This document shows positions 47,173 to 63,598 of a DNA stretch of 64,000 nucleotides, in pieces. Under the pieces are notes generated by a model. It saw only the letters and a program-made list of their open reading frames with translations, did no database searches and had not been told where the DNA came from. Made by a program: the position numbers and the translations under genes. This DNA comes from Arcobacter arenosus (lineage in GTDB: Bacteria; Campylobacterota; Campylobacteria; Campylobacterales; Arcobacteraceae), in assembly GCF_005771535.1 (NCBI RefSeq), contig NZ_VANU01000005.1:240213-304212 (forward strand). The letters run 5' to 3'. The stretch's first letter is position 1, and each line of letters opens with the position of its first letter.

Positions 47173-49980
47173 TTACGCTTTGTAAATCTTTACTGCACAT
47201 TTTTTAAAGTCTGTTTGTTTTGATTGCGGACAAGTAGCATCTAAACAAACTTTATTAATAAATACTTTTTCATCAAACCAAGGAACAAATACTAATCCTC
47301 TTGAAGGTCTATTTCTTCCTCTAGTTTCCACTCTTGCTTTAACTTTTCCACGTCTAGATTCAACCCAGCAAAGTCCACCTTGTGAAACTCCATATTTTTT
47401 TGCATCTTCTGGATGCATATAACATAATGCTTCTGGAACTGCTCTATATAATTCTGGAACTCTCATTGTCATTGTTCCACTATGCCAGTGTTCTAAAACT
47501 CTACCTGTACTCATCCATACTGGATACTCAGCATCTGGTTTTTCTGGTGGATCCATATATGGTCTAGCAAAAATCTTCGCTTTGTTTTTTAAAGATTTTT
47601 TAGTTTTATCTTTGATACCTGTTAAATCACCTTGTGCAAGTGCTTTAGCTAAAGTACCATAGAATGCAAACTCTGTATGACCTGTTTCTTTTCCATATTT
47701 TTTTGCATATGGATCGTATTTAGTATTAAATCTCCATTGAGTCTCTTTACCATCAACAACTGGCCATTTTAAACCTCTTACTTTGTGATATGTATCAAAG
47801 TCAGCTAAATCGTGCGCATGCCCTCTTCCGAAGTTTGCATACTCTTCAAATAGATATTTTTGGATATGGAAACCATAACCTTTCCAAACTTCTCCATCAC
47901 TTCCTTTAACATTTCTACTATCACCTAATGCATCTGTATCATCAAAACCTACATTGATTGGGTCTTCCATATCTTTTGGATATTTAACTCCACCTTGTTT
48001 ATATAAAATTTCAAACATTGTAGTGTTTTCGTCATATCCCATTTTTTTAGCTTCTGCTATTACATTTGGAAGTTTTTTACCATTTCTTAGAGTATATTCA
48101 CCCCATAAATCTTTAACTGTAAATCTTTTTGAAAGTTCTACCCATTGCCATGTATCAGACATTGCATCACCTACAGGTAATACTTGTTGTCTCCAGTGTT
48201 GAGTTCTTCTTTCAGCATTTCCATATGCTCCCCATTTTTCATAAATCATTGCTGATGGTAAAATAAGGTCAGAAACTTTTGCAGAAATTCCTGGATATCC
48301 ATCTGAAGTTACGATAAAGTTATCCATTTGTCTTGCTGCTTTAATCCAGTGAGTTGCACTTGCAGTATCTTGATATGGATTACAAACATTTACCCATGCA
48401 AATTTAATAACACCATCTTCAATATCTCTATGGATTTTCATAATATGTTGATTTCCTACTGGATTTAATGTTCCTAATGGAACTTTCCATGCTTTTTCAA
48501 CGATTTCTCTATGTTTACCATTTGCAACCATCATATCAGCAGGTAATCTGTGACAGAAAGTTCCTACTTCTCTTGCTGTACCACAAGCACTTGGTTGACC
48601 AGTTAATGAGAATGCTCCAGAACCTGGTTTTGCTTGTTTATTTAATAAAAAGTGAACATTATATGCTAAAGTATTTACCCAAGTACCTCTTGTGTGTTGG
48701 TTCATACCCATAGTCCAGAAAGATACTACTTTTCTAGATTTTTCAATATATAAAGAAGCTAATGTTTGAAGTTTTTGTTTAAACTCTTCTAGTGACTCAT
48801 CAGGGTTACCTTTAGAGATTTTAGCAACATAATCTAATGTATAAGGCTCTAAGAATTTTTTGTATTCTTCAAAAGAGATTTCCCAGTGTTTTAATCCAGC
48901 TGGTTTATTAACCATCTCATCTCCAGCTTTATATCCATAAGGTGCTAGTGCAGGAGCTTCTGTTTCAGAAACTATTTTTTTCATCTCTTTAGAGATTGTT
49001 TCCATCTCAGCAGCTGTATATTTACCATCTTTAAGTGATTTTTCACCCTCTCTTCTCATACCATAACCCATATTAACAGGGCTTGCTGCAAAAACAATAT
49101 GTTTTTTAACAAAATCCCAATCAATTGCTTCAGGGTGGTTATATACAATCTCTCTTGCAATATAGTTCCATAAAGCTAAGTCTGTGTTTGGAGTAAAGAT
49201 AATCTCCATATCAGCTAAGTCTGAAGTTCTATGTCTATAAGTTGAAATATTTACAACTTTAACGTTTTTTGGATCAGATAATTTTCTATCAGTTACCCTT
49301 GACCATAAAATTGGGTGCATCTCAGCCATATTTGATCCCCAAGATACTACAGTGTCAGTTAACTCAATATCATCATAACATCCAGATGGTTCATCAATAC
49401 CAAATGTTTGATAGAAACCAACAACAGCAGATGCCATACAGTGTCTTGCATTTGGATCAATAGCATTTGATCTAAATCCACCTTTCATCATCTTTTGTGC
49501 TGCATAACCTTCCATAACTGTATATTGCCCAGAAGCAAATACCCCTACTCCCTCAGGTCCGCTAGCTTTAAGTGCTTTTTTGATGTGAACTTCCATCTCA
49601 TCAAATGCTCTTTGCCATGAAACAGGTGCAAATTTACCGTTTTTATCAAACTCACCTTTTTCGTTTACTCTTAATAATGGAGTTTTTAATCTATCTGCTC
49701 CATACATAATTTTTGCATTAAAATAACCTTTAATACAGTTAAGACCTCTATTAACTGGTGCTGCTGGATCTCCTTTAACTGCAACGATTCGTCCATTTTT
49801 CGTTGCCATCATAATTCCACAACCTGTACCACAAAATCTACATGCTGCTTTGTCCCATCGCCAACCAGCTTCTGCTTGATTTGAAGCTGCTTGTAAATTA
49901 CTTGGGACTGACATACCAACTGCTGCTGCTGCAGAAGCTGCTGCCGAACTTTTTAGAAAATCTCTTCTTGAAAGTGCCAT
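47173..49980 (-). CDS. napA: Periplasmic nitrate reductase catalytic subunit NapA
   Basis: 935 residues from the ATG at 49980, which has AGGAGAGG immediately upstream and gives the Tat signal [20 protein letters not shown]. An in-frame ATG 33 nt earlier (50013) is rejected. The [4Fe-4S] site is CRFCGTGCG plus a fourth Cys in GLNCIKG. The molybdenum ligand is the Cys of [12 protein letters not shown]. It reduces nitrate to nitrite with a bis-MGD cofactor. The length and insertions are those of the Campylobacterota type. Confidence 0.97.
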
Positions 49981-50016
49981 TTCCTCTCCTTTAATGAAAT
50001 TGTTTTCAAACAAGTA

Positions 50017-50045: not shown

Positions 50046-50059
50046 TTGACTTGTGTCAA
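50046..50059 (-). promoter_or_regulatory. Crp/Fnr-type operator upstream of napA (proximal)
   Basis: TTGACTTGTGTCAA, a perfect TTGAC-N4-GTCAA palindrome 66 bases before the napA ATG. It fits the FNR/FixK/DNR family and lies at about -42 to a plausible -10, the class II activator position. Confidence 0.65.
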
Positions 50060-50134: not shown

Positions 50135-50148
50135 TTGACCTAAGTCAA
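50135..50148 (-). promoter_or_regulatory. Crp/Fnr-type operator upstream of napA (distal)
   Basis: TTGACCTAAGTCAA, a second perfect TTGAC-N4-GTCAA palindrome, 89 bases upstream of the first. The stretch 49981-50237 has no gene; apart from these sites and the terminator at 50189 it is AT-rich. Confidence 0.55.
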
Positions 50149-50237: not shown

Positions 50238-51233
50238 TTAAGCTTTTTTATCAATACTACAACTAGACAATAACTTATCTAATTCTGCTTTTAAATCTTG
50301 TAATTTTTTTGTTGATTTTAATAACTCTTCGGTTGATTCAATTACTATATCTTCACTTCTATCAATTTGACTCATAACTTCAGATTTATTTTCAATTTCA
50401 CTAATTAAATTATCAAACTCATCGGTTAAACTTTCAAGTTTTTCTGATGCTAGTTTAGATTGTTCTAAAGCATTTTGTGAATAATTTACTGCACTTGAAA
50501 CTTTTGAGATAAATTGATTAAAGTTATCTGCCATCTCAACAAACTCTTTTTCACCTTCAACTTTTATTGGTGCCATCTCATTAATATTTTTAGTTCCAAT
50601 CTCTTTAGCTTTTTCAATAAACTCATTTGCATGACTTTGTATTTGTCTTAATTGTATTAAAGAATAAAGTGAGAATATAAATAAAAAGGCAAAAGCAGTG
50701 TATTGGAAATTTTTAATAAAATTAGTTTTTTCCTCTATATAATTAGTATAAAGGGTAACAATCTCATCTACTTCAAATAGTAATTCATTATTTGCTTCAT
50801 TAAAGTAAAGTAATAATGAGTTGATTTTTTGTGTATCATTTTTTAAAATTGCTTCTTTAAACTCTAAAGAATTTTTATAAAAAACATTCCATAAAACTTG
50901 AACTTTTTCAATTTGAGATTTGATACTATTAACAGGTGCTTCTGCTATATTAAGAGTTTTATTTCCATCTTTTAATGTTGCTAGTCCAAAGATAAATTGA
51001 GAAATTGCCTTATCCATCTCTGTAAAATTTTTTGATTTTGTTTGATTTATTAAATATATGTTTTTAGTAATTCTTTGAGTAAGCATTCTTTGTTTACCTG
51101 CAATATTTACAATCAAGGCATCTTTAGTGTTTTTGTAATTAAGATGTATTGTAATAGAGATAACTGTAAATATTGTTATCATCAATAATGCACCTATAAC
51201 TTTTATTTTATTACTTACACTTTGAGTTTTCAT
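50238..51233 (-). CDS. Orphan PilJ-type (nitrate/nitrite sensor-like) membrane protein
   Basis: 331 residues. Membrane span 1 (about 10-28) and span 2 (about 173-193) flank a periplasmic helical domain that begins AGKQRMLTQRITKNIYL, the P-box-like motif of PilJ/NarX-type sensors. The cytoplasmic part is a coiled coil with no kinase, MCP or other output domain (ends KLQDLKAELDKLLSSCSIDKKA). It overlaps the upstream Crp/Fnr gene by 4 nt. Signalling to that regulator, or to another partner, is inference. Confidence 0.75.
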   Translation of the reverse strand: MKTQSVSNKIKVIGALLMITIFTVISITIHLNYKNTKDALIVNIAGKQRMLTQRITKNIYLINQTKSKNFTEMDKAISQFIFGLATLKDGNKTLNIAEAPVNSIKSQIEKVQVLWNVFYKNSLEFKEAILKNDTQKINSLLLYFNEANNELLFEVDEIVTLYTNYIEEKTNFIKNFQYTAFAFLFIFSLYSLIQLRQIQSHANEFIEKAKEIGTKNINEMAPIKVEGEKEFVEMADNFNQFISKVSSAVNYSQNALEQSKLASEKLESLTDEFDNLISEIENKSEVMSQIDRSEDIVIESTEELLKSTKKLQDLKAELDKLLSSCSIDKKA

Positions 51234-51895
51234 ATTCCAACTCCCATATATATTCCTTTTAATTCATCATAATTATTTATTATTATCTTACCCTTATCTA
51301 TGTCAATGGTTCCATTTCTAGATAATCTTTTTAAAACCCTTGATAAAGTTTCAGGTTGGATATGTAAAAGAAGTGATACTTCTGTTCTTTTTAAATCATT
51401 AAACATATCTAAATCATTTATTAACATAAATGCAACCTTTGATGTTGCATCAAAAACCAACTCTCTGTTTATAATACATTGGAGCTGTTGATTTTTATAT
51501 ATTAATTCTTCAACAAATTTCATTACAAGTTCATTTTGATATAAAAAACTCTCTTTGAATTGTTTATAATCAATTGATAAAAGTGTACTCTCTTTTATAA
51601 ACTCTGCATTTGAGAAACACCTAACTTGATTTTCCTCTAAACTTGAAAGTTCAGATATCATAGTATTAGCATATACATAATATAAAAAAATCTCATTATC
51701 ATATTTATCAATTTTGTAAACTTTTATTTGACCTTCTAATAGAAACAATAATTTATCCGTAGTATCAGCTTCATAATACAAAATTGAATCTTTTTCATAT
51801 CTTGAAATATGACTTATCTCTTTTAATACCTTTAATTCCTCTTCACTAATATGTGAAAAGAGATTGATACTTTTTATAGCCTCATCTAATTTCAT
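51230..51895 (-). CDS. Crp/Fnr-family transcription regulator
   Basis: 221 residues from the ATG at 51895 (preceded by GGGAG); an in-frame start at 51952 would run through the promoter palindrome. A cyclic-nucleotide-type beta barrel (about 15-120), dimer helix and winged helix. The recognition helix is IQPETLSRVLKRLS, with the E..SR pattern FNR uses to read TTGAT. The N-terminal FNR cysteines are absent, so it is not an Fe-S oxygen sensor. Divergent from the second regulator. Confidence 0.88.
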   Translation of the reverse strand: MKLDEAIKSINLFSHISEEELKVLKEISHISRYEKDSILYYEADTTDKLLFLLEGQIKVYKIDKYDNEIFLYYVYANTMISELSSLEENQVRCFSNAEFIKESTLLSIDYKQFKESFLYQNELVMKFVEELIYKNQQLQCIINRELVFDATSKVAFMLINDLDMFNDLKRTEVSLLLHIQPETLSRVLKRLSRNGTIDIDKGKIIINNYDELKGIYMGVGI

Positions 51896-51923
51896 TTTTC
51901 TCCCTGTATTCCCAACATCAGAT

Positions 51924-51929
51924 ATTGTA
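51924..51929 (-). promoter_or_regulatory. Putative -10 element of the leftward regulator gene
   Basis: TACAAT on the minus strand. A start site at 51917 would place the palindrome at 51952-51965 exactly at -41.5. Confidence 0.4.
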
Positions 51930-51951
51930 TAAAAAAAAACTTTTAATATCA

Positions 51952-51965
51952 TTGATTTATATCAA
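51952..51965. promoter_or_regulatory. Crp/Fnr-type operator between the two divergent regulators
   Basis: TTGATTTATATCAA, a perfect consensus TTGAT-N4-ATCAA. It lies 57 bases from the leftward ATG and 44 from the rightward one, so it can serve both genes, and autoregulation is likely. Confidence 0.75.
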
Positions 51966-52008: not shown

Positions 52009-52650
52009 ATGAAAACAATAAATAGATTACAAAAGCATGAAATTTTTAATGGCTTGGAACAAAATGAATTAGAAAAAATAGCCCAAATCACCATAACAAA
52101 AAATTTTGATAAAGACCAGATAATTTTCTATGAAACAGAAGAACCTAAATATTTTTATCTACTAAATAATGGGGTAGCAAAGGTTTATAAAGTTGATTCA
52201 AAAGGAAATGAGATAGTTTTGCATAATTTTGCAGCTCCAACTATGATAGCAGAAATGGCATCCATTGAAAACTTTAAATTCCCTGCAAGTTGTGTCGCTA
52301 TGGATAATTGTGAGTTTCTTCTAATAAAAAAAGAGGAATTTGTTAAACTTTTAAAAGCTAATCCTGACATCTCTTTTCATGTAATTAAATCATTAACAAG
52401 AAAAATCAGAGGAATGGAAGGTCTTTTAAATAGAAGTTTAATTTTTGATGCCACAACAAAAGTTGCTCACTATATAATTGAACGTACTGACGATTTTATT
52501 ATGAAAAAAAATAAAGAAGTGGCAAATGAGTTAAATATGACTCCAGAAACTCTATCAAGAGTTCTTAAAAAACTTAAAGATTTAAATATCTTAGATAAAG
52601 ATAGAAATATACTAAATAAAGATAAATTAGAAACATTCTTAGACTTTTAA
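52009..52650 (+). CDS. Crp/Fnr-family transcription regulator
   Basis: 213 residues. Sensor barrel (about 15-120), dimer helix, and winged helix with recognition helix MTPETLSRVLKKLK, nearly the same as in the divergent neighbour. No FNR-type Fe-S cysteines; a DNR/NssR-like role in nitric oxide or nitrogen-oxide sensing is possible. The ATG at 52009 has an in-frame TGA just before it and no ribosome-binding site in the normal place. A TATATA box lies 10-15 bases upstream, so the mRNA may be almost leaderless. Confidence 0.88.
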   Translation: MKTINRLQKHEIFNGLEQNELEKIAQITITKNFDKDQIIFYETEEPKYFYLLNNGVAKVYKVDSKGNEIVLHNFAAPTMIAEMASIENFKFPASCVAMDNCEFLLIKKEEFVKLLKANPDISFHVIKSLTRKIRGMEGLLNRSLIFDATTKVAHYIIERTDDFIMKKNKEVANELNMTPETLSRVLKKLKDLNILDKDRNILNKDKLETFLDF

Positions 52651-52654
52651 TTCA

Positions 52655-52668
52655 TTGATTTATATCAA
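52655..52668 (+). promoter_or_regulatory. Crp/Fnr-type operator of the hemerythrin operon
   Basis: TTGATTTATATCAA, identical to the site at 51952, inside a larger perfect palindrome ATTCATTGATTT/.../AAATTC-like (52650-52673). A TATTAT -10 box at 52691-52696 puts the start at 52703 and the operator exactly at -41.5. Confidence 0.75.
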
Positions 52669-52717
52669 TGAATTTATTTATATTTTCATATATTATTCTT
52701 AAAAAAAAGGATGATAT

Positions 52718-53143
52718 ATGAATGTAAATGAATTTATGACAAATGACCACAGAGCTTGTGACGAACAATTTGCTAATCTTGAAAATATGATTGACCAAGG
52801 AAATTTTGACAATGGTATATCTATGTTTGAAGAGTTTCATGAGCATATGATAAAACACTTCGATATGGAAGAAAAAGTTATGTTCCCAATGTTTAATGAG
52901 GCACAAAGTGAAGGTTGTAATCCAACTCAAGTTATGATAATGGAACACAATCAAATGAGAGCTTTATTAAATAAAATGAAAAGTGCTATCCAAGTAAAAG
53001 ATAAAAACTCTTTTTTAGGTCTTAGTGAAAATCTAATGTTTTTAGTTCAACAACACAATATGAAAGAAGAACAAATAATGTACAACTTAGTTGATAATGC
53101 TTTAGATTCACAAGAAGTTATAAACAAAATGAACGAGATTTAA
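52718..53143 (+). CDS. Hemerythrin-domain protein
   Basis: 141 residues, four-helix hemerythrin. Iron ligands are visible in TNDHRACDEQF (His about 11), FEEFHEHMIKHFDMEEKVMF (HxxxE region), MIMEHNQMR and LVQQHNMKEEQIMY. It could bind O2 or NO, or act like YtfE/Ric in Fe-S repair. AAAGGA lies six bases upstream of the ATG. First gene of a three- or four-gene operon behind a Crp/Fnr operator. Confidence 0.9.
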   Translation: MNVNEFMTNDHRACDEQFANLENMIDQGNFDNGISMFEEFHEHMIKHFDMEEKVMFPMFNEAQSEGCNPTQVMIMEHNQMRALLNKMKSAIQVKDKNSFLGLSENLMFLVQQHNMKEEQIMYNLVDNALDSQEVINKMNEI

Positions 53144-53144
53144 A

Positions 53145-53399
53145 ATGTTAAAAGAGATTTTACTTGATTGTACAATGCTTGAATCACCAGAGCCACTAAA
53201 TTTGGTTATTCAAAACCTTGGAAATATATCTAAAACAACTTATATAAAAATGATCCATAGAATGCAACCAATGATGTTATTTAATATCTTAGATCAAAAT
53301 GGTTTTAAATATATAACAATGGAAGAAAACAATCAAGTTGAAATCTATATATTTAAAGAAGAGTTCTATGAGGAGCAAAAAAGATGTATACAGGATTAA
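53145..53399 (+). CDS. DUF2249-type small protein
   Basis: 84 residues. LLDCTMLESPEPLNLVIQNLGN, then YIKMIHRMQPMMLFNILDQNGF and a short C-terminal beta strand resemble the DUF2249/TusA-like fold found beside hemerythrins and nitric-oxide genes. It follows the hemerythrin gene by 1 nt and overlaps the membrane-protein gene by 16 nt. Confidence 0.78.
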   Translation: MLKEILLDCTMLESPEPLNLVIQNLGNISKTTYIKMIHRMQPMMLFNILDQNGFKYITMEENNQVEIYIFKEEFYEEQKRCIQD

Positions 53400-54643
53400 G
53401 CCTAGACCAAGCTCCACCATTTGAAGCACCTTTAAAATTTTTCTTAACAGCTCCACTTTTTGCAACATTGGCTGGAATAATTGTATTTTTTTTAGATGAC
53501 TTAAATATGTTTGCAAGGCAAACTATTGGACTAGTACATATCTTAACAATTGGATTTATGATGATGATTATATTTGGAGCATTACTTCAAATGCTTCCAG
53601 TAGTTGCAGGAGCAGTTATAAAAAAACCAAAAATAGTAGCAAATACAACTTATAGTTTTCTATTAATAGGGGTTATATCATTTTTTCTTGGTTTTTATTT
53701 TTATGAAAAAAGTGCTTTGTTTATTTCATCAATATCATTACTAACAGCATCAGTTGTTTTTTTAGGTATTTGTTTATATGAACTAATGAAAGTAAAACCA
53801 AAATCTTTTATTGTTCAAGGTATGATTTTTTCTACTTTTTTTGCACTTTTAGCTATATTTATTGGGATTTATATGGGTATTTCCCATGCAAAAGAAAATA
53901 TTAGTGCATCATATTTTCTTTTTACAAGTATCCATTATAATTTTGTTTTTGTAGGATTTATCTTTTTATTAATTGCCTCTATTACATTTCAAGTTGTTCC
54001 TATGTTTTGGGTAACTAATCCATTTGAAAAAACAAAACAAAAATTTATAATCTATTTTACAGTAGTTATGTTAGTTATATTTTCTATATCTTTATTATTA
54101 GGGCTTCAAGATTTATTTTTTTATAAAATTGCTTTATTTTTTATTTGTTCATATTTTGCATATCAAACAATAAAAACTATTATAAGTAGAAAAAGAAAAT
54201 TAAAAGATTTATCAGTTAACTACTATCTTACAAGTATGTTTTTTCTAATTTTAGGTTCACTATATTTTATAATTTATGATTTTTTTAATCTTAAAATTGA
54301 GATTTTAGCAGTCTTATGGGGAATTGGTTTTATTATGTCAATTATGAATGGAATGTTATATAAAATAGTTCCTTTTTTAGCATGGTTTCATCTAAGCTCA
54401 AAAGGTTTTTTTGATATACCAACAATTAGAGATATGATTCCACCTAAACAAATTGAGATACAATTCTTTTTACACCTTGGTGCAATTATATTTTTTCTAT
54501 TATTTTTGATTTTTGAGTACTCAATTTTATTAAAACTTGCAGCAGTTGTTTTTGCTCTATCAAATATATATTTATTTTTTAATCTTTTCAAAGCTGCTAA
54601 AGTCTATTTAGATTTTGATACAAGTCAAAGTATACTAAACTAA
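53384..54643 (+). CDS. Polytopic membrane protein with repeated haem-copper-like His/Gly/Pro motif
   Basis: 419 residues, about 12 membrane spans, AGGAG eight bases upstream. Three segments share a pattern: HILTIGFMMMIIFGALLQML-P (His 52), HYNFVFVGFIFLLI...QVVP (His 184), and WGIGFIMSIMNGMLYKIVP (about 312-330), the last ending WFH with His 336. This resembles NnrS and cytochrome oxidase subunit I-like proteins, but I cannot assign it to either. Membrane histidines could bind haem or copper. A link to NO handling comes from the hemerythrin/DUF2249 context. Confidence 0.7.
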   Translation: MYTGLSLDQAPPFEAPLKFFLTAPLFATLAGIIVFFLDDLNMFARQTIGLVHILTIGFMMMIIFGALLQMLPVVAGAVIKKPKIVANTTYSFLLIGVISFFLGFYFYEKSALFISSISLLTASVVFLGICLYELMKVKPKSFIVQGMIFSTFFALLAIFIGIYMGISHAKENISASYFLFTSIHYNFVFVGFIFLLIASITFQVVPMFWVTNPFEKTKQKFIIYFTVVMLVIFSISLLLGLQDLFFYKIALFFICSYFAYQTIKTIISRKRKLKDLSVNYYLTSMFFLILGSLYFIIYDFFNLKIEILAVLWGIGFIMSIMNGMLYKIVPFLAWFHLSSKGFFDIPTIRDMIPPKQIEIQFFLHLGAIIFFLLFLIFEYSILLKLAAVVFALSNIYLFFNLFKAAKVYLDFDTSQSILN

Positions 54644-54682
54644 TTTAGTATACAATTGTTTTATCCCAATAAAGGATTTAAC

Positions 54683-54925
54683 ATGTACAAATTAGTTTTC
54701 ATTTTAGCTTTTTTAATTATTGGCTCTTATGCTAATGATAACTTACAAGAAAAGAATCTTCAAAAACAAATTGAAAAAGAAAAGAAATATAAAGAGGAAC
54801 AAAAATTTTATCAAGGGAAAAACTACGATTTAGATAGTTTTAAAGTTGATGAAAACTCTTTAAAAAATATTCCTGAACAAAAAAACTACAATGAAGACTT
54901 TGATATGGATCATACCTATGACTAA
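54683..54925 (+). CDS. Small secreted protein
   Basis: 80 residues from the ATG at 54683, chosen for AAAGGA six bases upstream and the signal peptide MYKLVFILAFLIIGSYA. The mature part is about 64 residues, charged (QEKNLQKQIEKEKKYKEEQ), without cysteines, so it is probably disordered or helical. It lies 39 nt after the membrane-protein gene. I do not recognise it. Confidence 0.7.
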   Translation: MYKLVFILAFLIIGSYANDNLQEKNLQKQIEKEKKYKEEQKFYQGKNYDLDSFKVDENSLKNIPEQKNYNEDFDMDHTYD

Positions 54926-62107: not shown

Positions 62108-63598
62108 TTAATTGTAAGAAGTTTTATCTTCTACACCTTTAGTCGATTCAGGGTTATAAACACCTTTTTTCTCTGCTTCTTTTTTCCACTCAATTAAAAG
62201 ACCATTTTTGAATTTCTTTTTATCTTCAACTAATTTGTCGAATGGTAATCCAATAATCTCTTGAGCTTTCTCTTTTGAATCAATTGATGGTGCTACATAA
62301 TCTGCTGCTCCATATTTAGCTAAAATTTTAGCTAATTTGATTCTTGCATTTCCTGCTTTTTCTAACGCAGTACCTAAAACTCTTAAAGTTTCTTCTGGTG
62401 CATGGAAGAATGCTGGGTGTGATGCAACTGCATAATCCCATCTCCATTGTGCGTGTCTAATATCTTTTAATACTGGTGCCATCTCTGCTTCAGTTGCTCC
62501 AACTTCCCAAGCTTTTCCAGCTTCTAAGTGTGCAGCAGCGATTTGAACCATAGATTTTTTATGTAACTCAGTTTTTCTTTTCTTTTTCTCTGCAATTGTT
62601 GCAAGTAAAGATTTTTCAGAAACTCTGTGACAAGTCATACAAGTATTTTCCATATTTTCTAATGGATTTCCTATATTATGATCTGTATATTTAACTCCAC
62701 CTTCTCTTTTGTAAGGCATATGACAATCTGCACAAGAAACATTGTTTTTACCGTGTGCACCTGTTAAATACATTTCATAACCTGGGTGTTGAGTTTTTAA
62801 CATTGGAGTTTTAGAAATTTTATGTGTCCAATCTTTGAAATCAATATTATCATAATATCTTTCCATATCATCAACAGTAGTACCTTCAGCCCATGGTAAT
62901 GTTACAACTGCAGCTTTTCCACCTTTACCATTATCAGTTTTTTTGAAATAGTATTCTACGTGACATTGTGCACATACCATAGTTCTCATCTCTTGGTGAG
63001 TTGCATCAGCTAAAGGAGTTAACCCAGCAGCTTTTAGACCATCATCTAGATATTTTCTGTTAACTTGCAGTTCCATAGTTTTAGGGTTATGACAATCCAC
63101 ACAACCAATAGGATTAATAATGTCAGAACCATATTTTGCCCATTTACCAGTAAAGTACTCTAAATCACCTTGCTCATTCATAATTCTTGGAACATCAGGA
63201 GATTTACATGTCCAACATGCAGTAGGCATTGGACCAGTTTTTCCATCAACAGGAGCACCTGTTCTTAATGTATTTCTGTTATCTTCGATTGCATAAAAGT
63301 GCCCTCTTGGAGCATTATAATCTTTTGCAAATCCATATCCAGCCCATAATACAACTAATTCTGGATACTCTTTTAACATATCATCTATGTCATCACTCTC
63401 TTTTGTTTTTTTCCAAGAATCATATTGTCTTGGATAAAACTTTTTAAACTCTTCATTTTTAGTTTGCCATCTCTCAACTTGTGGTACAGAGTTTATTATT
63501 TTTTGTTCTTCTTTCTTTTCATTAATAGATGCAATTAATGCTGTTAAACAACCAATTGCTAATAATGAAACAGCAAGTAACACTTTGAACTTCTTCAT
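62108..63598 (-). CDS. nrfA: Ammonia-forming cytochrome c nitrite reductase NrfA
   Basis: 496 residues with an N-terminal signal/anchor (KFKVLLAVSLLAIGCLTALIAS). Five haems: the catalytic CWTCK (residues 128-132), then CVDCH, CAQCH (followed by VEYYF with the catalytic Tyr), CADCH and CMTCH. The catalytic His lies in GAHGKNNV. It reduces nitrite to ammonium with six electrons from NrfH in the periplasm. It follows nrfH by 14 nt. Confidence 0.97.
   Translation of the reverse strand: MKKFKVLLAVSLLAIGCLTALIASINEKKEEQKIINSVPQVERWQTKNEEFKKFYPRQYDSWKKTKESDDIDDMLKEYPELVVLWAGYGFAKDYNAPRGHFYAIEDNRNTLRTGAPVDGKTGPMPTACWTCKSPDVPRIMNEQGDLEYFTGKWAKYGSDIINPIGCVDCHNPKTMELQVNRKYLDDGLKAAGLTPLADATHQEMRTMVCAQCHVEYYFKKTDNGKGGKAAVVTLPWAEGTTVDDMERYYDNIDFKDWTHKISKTPMLKTQHPGYEMYLTGAHGKNNVSCADCHMPYKREGGVKYTDHNIGNPLENMENTCMTCHRVSEKSLLATIAEKKKRKTELHKKSMVQIAAAHLEAGKAWEVGATEAEMAPVLKDIRHAQWRWDYAVASHPAFFHAPEETLRVLGTALEKAGNARIKLAKILAKYGAADYVAPSIDSKEKAQEIIGLPFDKLVEDKKKFKNGLLIEWKKEAEKKGVYNPESTKGVEDKTSYN

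Follow-up and report, generated by a model that had tools for sequence, protein, structure and literature searches.

Genes and predicted promoters of the locus

In the window (the 64-kb stretch of Arcobacter arenosus DNA analyzed here), two divergent Crp/Fnr-family regulator genes are followed by rightward genes for a hemerythrin-like protein, a DUF2249 protein, a membrane protein and a small protein with a signal-peptide-like start (Table 1). A napA-like gene was found on one side of this region and a cytochrome c552/NrfA gene on the other; the original prediction had likewise placed the module between nap and nrf.

Table 1. Positions of genes and predicted regulatory elements in the window
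Feature	Position	Strand	Remarks
napA-like gene	47173-50013	minus	identified from its own sequence and its neighbours, not by profile
Second Crp/Fnr-family regulator, divergent	51230-51952	minus	Pfam; same recognition motif (QPETLSRVLKRL, from sequence)
Second copy of operator TTGATTTATATCAA	51952-51965		separates the divergent Crp/Fnr genes; on the minus side, TACAAT 32 nt away
Crp/Fnr-family regulator, candidate regulator	52009-52650	plus	Pfam cNMP_binding and HTH_Crp_2
FNR/DNR-type predicted operator TTGATTTATATCAA	52655-52668	plus	exact match, class-II position (-41.5), centre 52661.5
-10 hexamer TATTAT	52691-52696	plus	32 nt from operator TTGATTTATATCAA, centre to centre
HHE hemerythrin-like di-iron protein, 141 aa	52718-53143	plus	PF01814, E = 4e-20, above the Pfam cut-off
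DUF2249 protein, 84 aa	53145-53399	plus	PF10006 via relatives
12-helix membrane protein, 419 aa	53384-54643	plus	predicted heme-copper oxidase subunit I fold; H52 and H184 invariant
Second predicted operator TTGATACAAGTCAA	54615-54628	plus	within the last part (3' end) of the membrane gene; followed by TACAAT, spacing 32 nt from the operator centre
80-aa protein, signal-peptide-like start	54683-54925	plus	homologues in 8 other genomes of the family
Cytochrome c552/NrfA gene	62108-63598		flanks the module region

The first gene was expected to encode a hemerythrin, and both the Pfam match and the conservation of the ligands agree with this. The predicted di-iron ligands are H11, H47, E51, H77, H113 and E117, and these four His and two Glu are kept in all 72 homologues, truncated rows aside. 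Cys14 (motif DHRxCDE), which is not among the expected di-iron ligands, is conserved in 67 of the 72. The solved relatives found for this protein were YtfE structures only (E = 3e-4). The YtfE/RIC/DnrN repair proteins likewise have an HHE domain, a comparable ligand pattern and an NO-stress context, whereas the hemerythrin of the window consists of one short domain, lacks the N-terminal ScdA-type part and stays below the cut-offs of the curated YtfE/RIC equivalog models (35 of 254 and 24.9 of 204.7 bits).

The second gene had been assigned to DUF2249, and its relatives bear this out. The 84-aa protein alone is sub-threshold (20.3 bits, cut-off 29.5), but all 16 of its aligned relatives match PF10006, with a best E-value of 1e-15. 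Its AF2 model (pLDDT 94.9) has a mixed alpha/beta fold of the order b-a-b-a-b-b-a. The last 16 bases of the DUF2249 gene are shared with the start of the membrane gene.

The perfect TTGAT-N4-ATCAA site predicted at -41.5 from a TATTAT box was confirmed upstream of the hemerythrin gene, and the two elements together correspond to a predicted FNR/DNR-type class-II promoter. The window contains six copies of the pattern TTGAYN4RTCAA, where 0.9 would be expected, and as many were seen in none of 100 shuffles. Five of the six sites fall within 50.0-54.6 kb. Two of these lie ahead of the napA-like gene, and there is one each between the two divergent Crp/Fnr genes, in front of the hemerythrin gene and in front of the 80-aa gene; these latter three are each accompanied by a -10-like hexamer 32 nt off. 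Two TTGAC-N4-GTCAA boxes (50046-50059 and 50135-50148) are located upstream of the minus-strand nap-like operon, which may be a member of the same regulon. The recognition helix of the plus-strand regulator, as read from its sequence, carries the E-x-x-S-R motif (TPETLSRVLKKL), and the minus-strand regulator probably starts downstream of its listed start. Directly downstream of the latter, boxed gene, a membrane protein with a PilJ-type sensor domain is encoded (50238-51233, minus strand), in which a kinase domain was not found.

Elsewhere in this genome, the same box was found upstream of a prismane/hcp-type gene (L194, 2878-2891) and of nosZ (L192, 7448-7461). The 14-mer occurs 22 times in the genome against 13 for the reversed-pattern control, a modest excess with several sites inside genes, and single sites were counted only where they are placed before a relevant gene. 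Among the relatives, a perfect TTGA[TC]N4[AG]TCAA precedes the hemerythrin gene in 26 of 71 loci, compared with 0.2 expected from mononucleotide shuffles. Most of these box centres lie about 56-69 nt ahead of the start codon, and most have a TATAAT-like hexamer 31-33 nt from the box centre. This spacing holds in Arcobacteraceae, some Sulfurimonas and others, which as relatives are not independent. Most Sulfurimonas loci have no perfect box and carry imperfect sites only, several of them at the same position.

The original prediction treated all four genes as one unit under one site. This stands for the first three genes but not for the small secreted protein: its gene appears to have a promoter of its own, given the box TTGATACAAGTCAA and the -10-like hexamer 32 nt away, and TTGATACAAGTCAA is the predicted operator that drives it. 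Its homologues lie apart from the membrane gene, and in one relative (L206) the gene has its own box away from the membrane gene. We therefore rejected it as a member of the module; it is probably co-regulated, within the regulon and outside the conserved module. A perfect 10-bp hairpin (GTATACTAAA-CTAA-TTTAGTATAC, 54630-54653; fold z-score -3.2) is present just 3' of the membrane gene and overlaps the -10 region of the 80-aa gene; it may be a terminator or an operator.

The membrane protein and its predicted haem

The 419-aa protein had no match in Pfam, NCBIfam or PHROGs. A profile was built from 62 relatives, and AF2 was run on that alignment. The resulting model (pLDDT 95.8, pTM 0.94) contains 12 long helices, in line with the 12 spans that had been predicted. 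At E < 0.001, its Foldseek matches were exclusively cbb3 CcoN and cNOR NorB. The structure comparison covered the Foldseek candidates, and among the matches listed there were oxidases and NO reductases alone (Z 34, 2.9-3.3 A over 380-390 aa); with VIA-align, the model was superimposed on cbb3 CcoN at Z = 34 and 2.9 A over 380 residues with 10% identity. The profile compared with solved structures also pointed to cbb3 CcoN (E = 2e-5). On the model, the protein has the heme-copper oxidase subunit I fold, with 12 helices (Z 34) and a three-fold pseudo-symmetry.

The repeated segments noticed earlier do exist, in the form of four-helix units. The first two (units 1 and 2) can be aligned with each other (hhalign E = 6e-5), with H52 falling on H184, but the shared His does not extend to the third segment: unit 3 has no corresponding residue, and H336 sits at the opposite end of its helix. 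In a unit-by-unit hhalign comparison, units 1 and 2 both resemble the third unit of CcoN. It should be noted that both the unit-level and the full profile comparisons with CcoN are weak.

Thus, the suggested likeness to oxidase subunit I holds at the level of the fold. By sequence, COX1/NorB membership was rejected after Pfam, relatives' and profile-profile comparisons: the window protein has no match to PF00115 (COX1), and 5 of the 62 relatives match it weakly, with a best E-value of 1e-5. The suggested resemblance to NnrS was not sustained. The window protein has no match to PF05940, which is weakly matched by 2 of the 62 members (best E = 0.00097), and the profile-profile probability was 0.4%, so NnrS membership was rejected as well. 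A transporter reading was discarded, since profile searches with the window protein and its relatives gave no convincing transporter match; a strong match of this kind had been named in advance as a result that would speak against the prediction.

Compared with CcoN (3mk7, 9g6b) and cNOR NorB (4xyd, 3o0r), the membrane protein has the same 12-helix, three-unit fold and likewise His near the start of TM2 and TM6. However, it is shorter, shares about 10% identity with them and has neither CuB/FeB ligands, nor the HxH of TM10, nor a CcoO/NorC partner gene. NnrS is likewise a membrane protein of 12-helix size in NO regulons, and a haem protein according to the literature, but it has no profile relation to the present family and differs in its conserved residues, and the two families can be found next to each other within one genome.

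Three His (H52, H184 and H336) do not vary among the 62 members. Adding the homologues of clade B (the paralogous clade described below), Thermus and rhizobia leaves H52 and H184 as the sole invariant His. H168 varies, and clade B often has Glu in place of H336. Of the haem sites predicted at His52, 168, 184 and 336, only the first and third thus remain as candidates, and H168 and H336 were rejected as family-wide haem ligands. The profile alignment places H52 opposite H347 of CcoN (the match of E = 2e-5), and in a second, weaker stretch, individually non-significant, H184 is opposite H60. In CcoN (3mk7), the low-spin haem b is held by H60 and H347. The sequence match to CcoN extends over a short part only and appears to be offset by a four-helix unit. 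The conservation of the His and their alignment to H60 and H347 suggest that the membrane protein binds haem; given the three-fold pseudo-symmetry of the fold and the alignment of units 1 and 2 with each other, a bis-His haem between TM2 (H52) and TM6 (H184) would be the simplest reading. The positive residues in the even loops, taken from the sequence and the AF2 helices, put H52 and H184 on the periplasmic side, and the conserved K327, W334, H336, R269 and R271 face the cytoplasm.

Catalytic subunits I have six conserved His for the low-spin haem, the high-spin haem and CuB/FeB, and this set is incomplete here: TM7 has no His pair, and the haem end of TM10 has no His. Without CuB/FeB ligands and the TM10 HxH there would be no binuclear centre, which argues against the reduction of O2 or NO by the membrane protein itself.

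Conserved pairing and genomic context

The 80 loci from named genomes were picked by the membrane protein alone. By ORF calling, a hemerythrin gene was found just upstream of the membrane gene in 71 of 79 loci (window included), and a further nine came from tblastn, among them a partial one cut by a contig end. Altogether, 80 of 81 loci have a hemerythrin gene ahead of the membrane gene; the remaining locus (L094) is truncated, with some 313 bases on the upstream side. In 19 loci, ORF calling placed a DUF2249 gene between the two. Hemerythrin had been proposed as the partner of the membrane protein, with a lack of co-occurrence in other genomes named as a contrary result; the pairing proved to be near universal.

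The family comprises clade A, to which the window copy belongs, and the paralogous clade B, the two being one family by hhalign (E = 3e-39). Clade B shares the two His and the DUF2249 partner and is found in nor/nir/nar clusters of Campylobacterota, Thermus and rhizobia; in contrast to clade A, no hemerythrin partner was seen, and usually an Fe-S assembly gene is present instead. In this genome, paralogue B belongs to a cluster (L157, 5412-15856; G000:C1, about 455-466 kb) of YgbA_NO, NnrS, TM_HPP, an Fe-S assembly protein, paralogue B and DUF2249, which is divergent from norEFCBDQ and an Rrf2 regulator gene. A Thermus plasmid carries a nar operon, two DUF2249 genes, a protoglobin-like gene, a family member and an Fe-S assembly factor, the position of the DUF2249 pair matching drpA/drpB of PMC6282519. 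The protoglobin-domain gene (L201, 7099-7938) adjoins the family member. On pSymA of S. meliloti, the order is norD, hemN, DUF2249, family member, DUF2249, Fe-S assembly factor, NnrS, nirK. The expected nitrogen-oxide context is apparent from both the paralogue in nor/nir/nar clusters and the box before nosZ and the hcp-type gene.

Among 150 genomes of the order, clade A is present in 57, clade B in 78 and the family in 89, the clades being split by E-value. With kinship ignored, nosZ was found in 36 of the 57 genomes with clade A versus 20 of the other 93, and in 52 of the 78 with clade B versus 4 of the other 72. About a third of the clade A genomes lack nosZ. Many carriers of the module are sulphur-oxidising Campylobacterota. 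Within the genus of the window, clade A occurs in 6 of 16 genomes at 37-39% identity to the window copy, which is closer to two MAGs (L047, 56%; L048, 49%) than to its own genus. This patchy distribution suggests gain and loss or horizontal transfer.

A proposed role in protection against nitric oxide

The module is real and conserved, and it most likely shields iron and Fe-S sites from NO. Since the pairing recurs in essentially every relative examined, this defence is probably conserved too. We consider it probable that the three genes form an FNR/DNR-activated operon guarding the cell against the NO that arises from nitrate/nitrite respiration, and suggest the following scheme. A Crp/Fnr-type (FNR/DNR) activator would turn on the hemerythrin, DUF2249 and membrane genes when nitrate/nitrite respiration yields NO that threatens iron and Fe-S sites. 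The membrane protein would retain a single low-spin haem b close to the periplasmic side, with H52 of TM2 and H184 of TM6 as its two His ligands; having no binuclear centre, it would not reduce O2 or NO of its own but would support its partners in their di-iron and Fe-S chemistry in the cytoplasm. The most likely route would lead electrons from the quinol pool via the membrane protein to the HHE protein, and NO-damaged iron and Fe-S sites would thereby be protected or repaired. A haem on the periplasmic side would need a further relay to reach a cytoplasmic partner, and this electron-relay version of the NO-protection role is put forward tentatively. Rather doubtful is its most elaborate form, in which a branch of the oxidase fold has lost catalysis, holds its haem one four-helix unit away and acts as a quinol-to-hemerythrin line for reducing or trapping NO or for rebuilding Fe-S clusters.

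A somewhat unlikely alternative is that the haem of the membrane protein itself binds NO or passes on signals of NO damage, without electron flow to hemerythrin being involved. NnrS, a haem protein said to limit dinitrosyl-iron damage (PMC11526790), offers a precedent; its genes occur in the same clusters, and two family members match it weakly. However, a bis-His haem offers no free site unless one ligand leaves, the family has no profile relation to NnrS, and the strict pairing with hemerythrin would be left unexplained.

It is unlikely that the module serves protection from oxygen, with hemerythrin binding O2 and shielding Fe-S enzymes in a microaerophile while O2 or electrons pass between the membrane protein and the respiratory chain. 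A similar role was proposed for the Campylobacter jejuni hemerythrins, those of Sulfurimonas are discussed as O2-binding or detoxifying in a passage of PMC10066037 that cites Kendall 2014, many of the hosts are sulphur oxidisers, and an FNR-type box would be compatible with control by O2 too. Against this stand the HHE ligand pattern with its YtfE-like nearest solved relative, the paralogue and DUF2249 genes in nor/nir/nar clusters, and the same box ahead of nosZ and hcp.

The membrane protein could also be a sensor of nitrate, NO or redox state signalling through DUF2249 and hemerythrin, as in the proposal for DrpA/DrpB of Thermus. These DUF2249 proteins affect nar expression (PMC6282519), and a family member lies three genes downstream in the same direction. 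The membrane protein nevertheless has no output domain and its conserved partner is a metalloprotein, not a regulator, so we regard sensing as distinctly unlikely.

The DUF2249 family corresponds to COG4309. Least likely is a part in assembling NO reductase or cbb3 oxidase or in handling haem or metal for them: paralogue B stands beside norCBDQ and an Fe-S assembly gene, and COG4309, whose genes co-transcribed with norB were flagged in 2005, was suggested to be important for NO reductase function (PMC1274295), but a close relative of the cNOR of this genome is present in 4 of the 150 genomes as against the 89 with the family, and clade A does not adjoin oxidase genes in the loci examined.

As to earlier work on the components of the proposed NO-protection module, Pei et al. 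2014, as cited in PMC11218638, reported on divergent families of the heme-copper oxidase superfamily and linked DUF2249 to this superfamily. For this reason, the oxidase-fold assignment of the membrane protein may be partly known already. The original prediction of a possible new membrane system somewhat overestimated its novelty in this respect; in the open literature, we found no description of the hemerythrin/membrane pair, the conserved class-II promoter or the two-His signature.

The membrane gene is labelled 'hypothetical protein' in the paralogue B cluster of this genome and even within such well-studied N-oxide clusters as those of Sinorhizobium pSymA and the Thermus nar element. Should its product prove to be an oxidase homologue that carries haem, is not catalytic and is tied to di-iron and Fe-S repair proteins, the DUF2249 and hemerythrin orphans of denitrifiers would gain a membrane partner. 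The oxidase fold would then have been reused outside respiration, as the membrane partner of a soluble di-iron protein, and a group of NO-regulon genes of undefined role would become testable.
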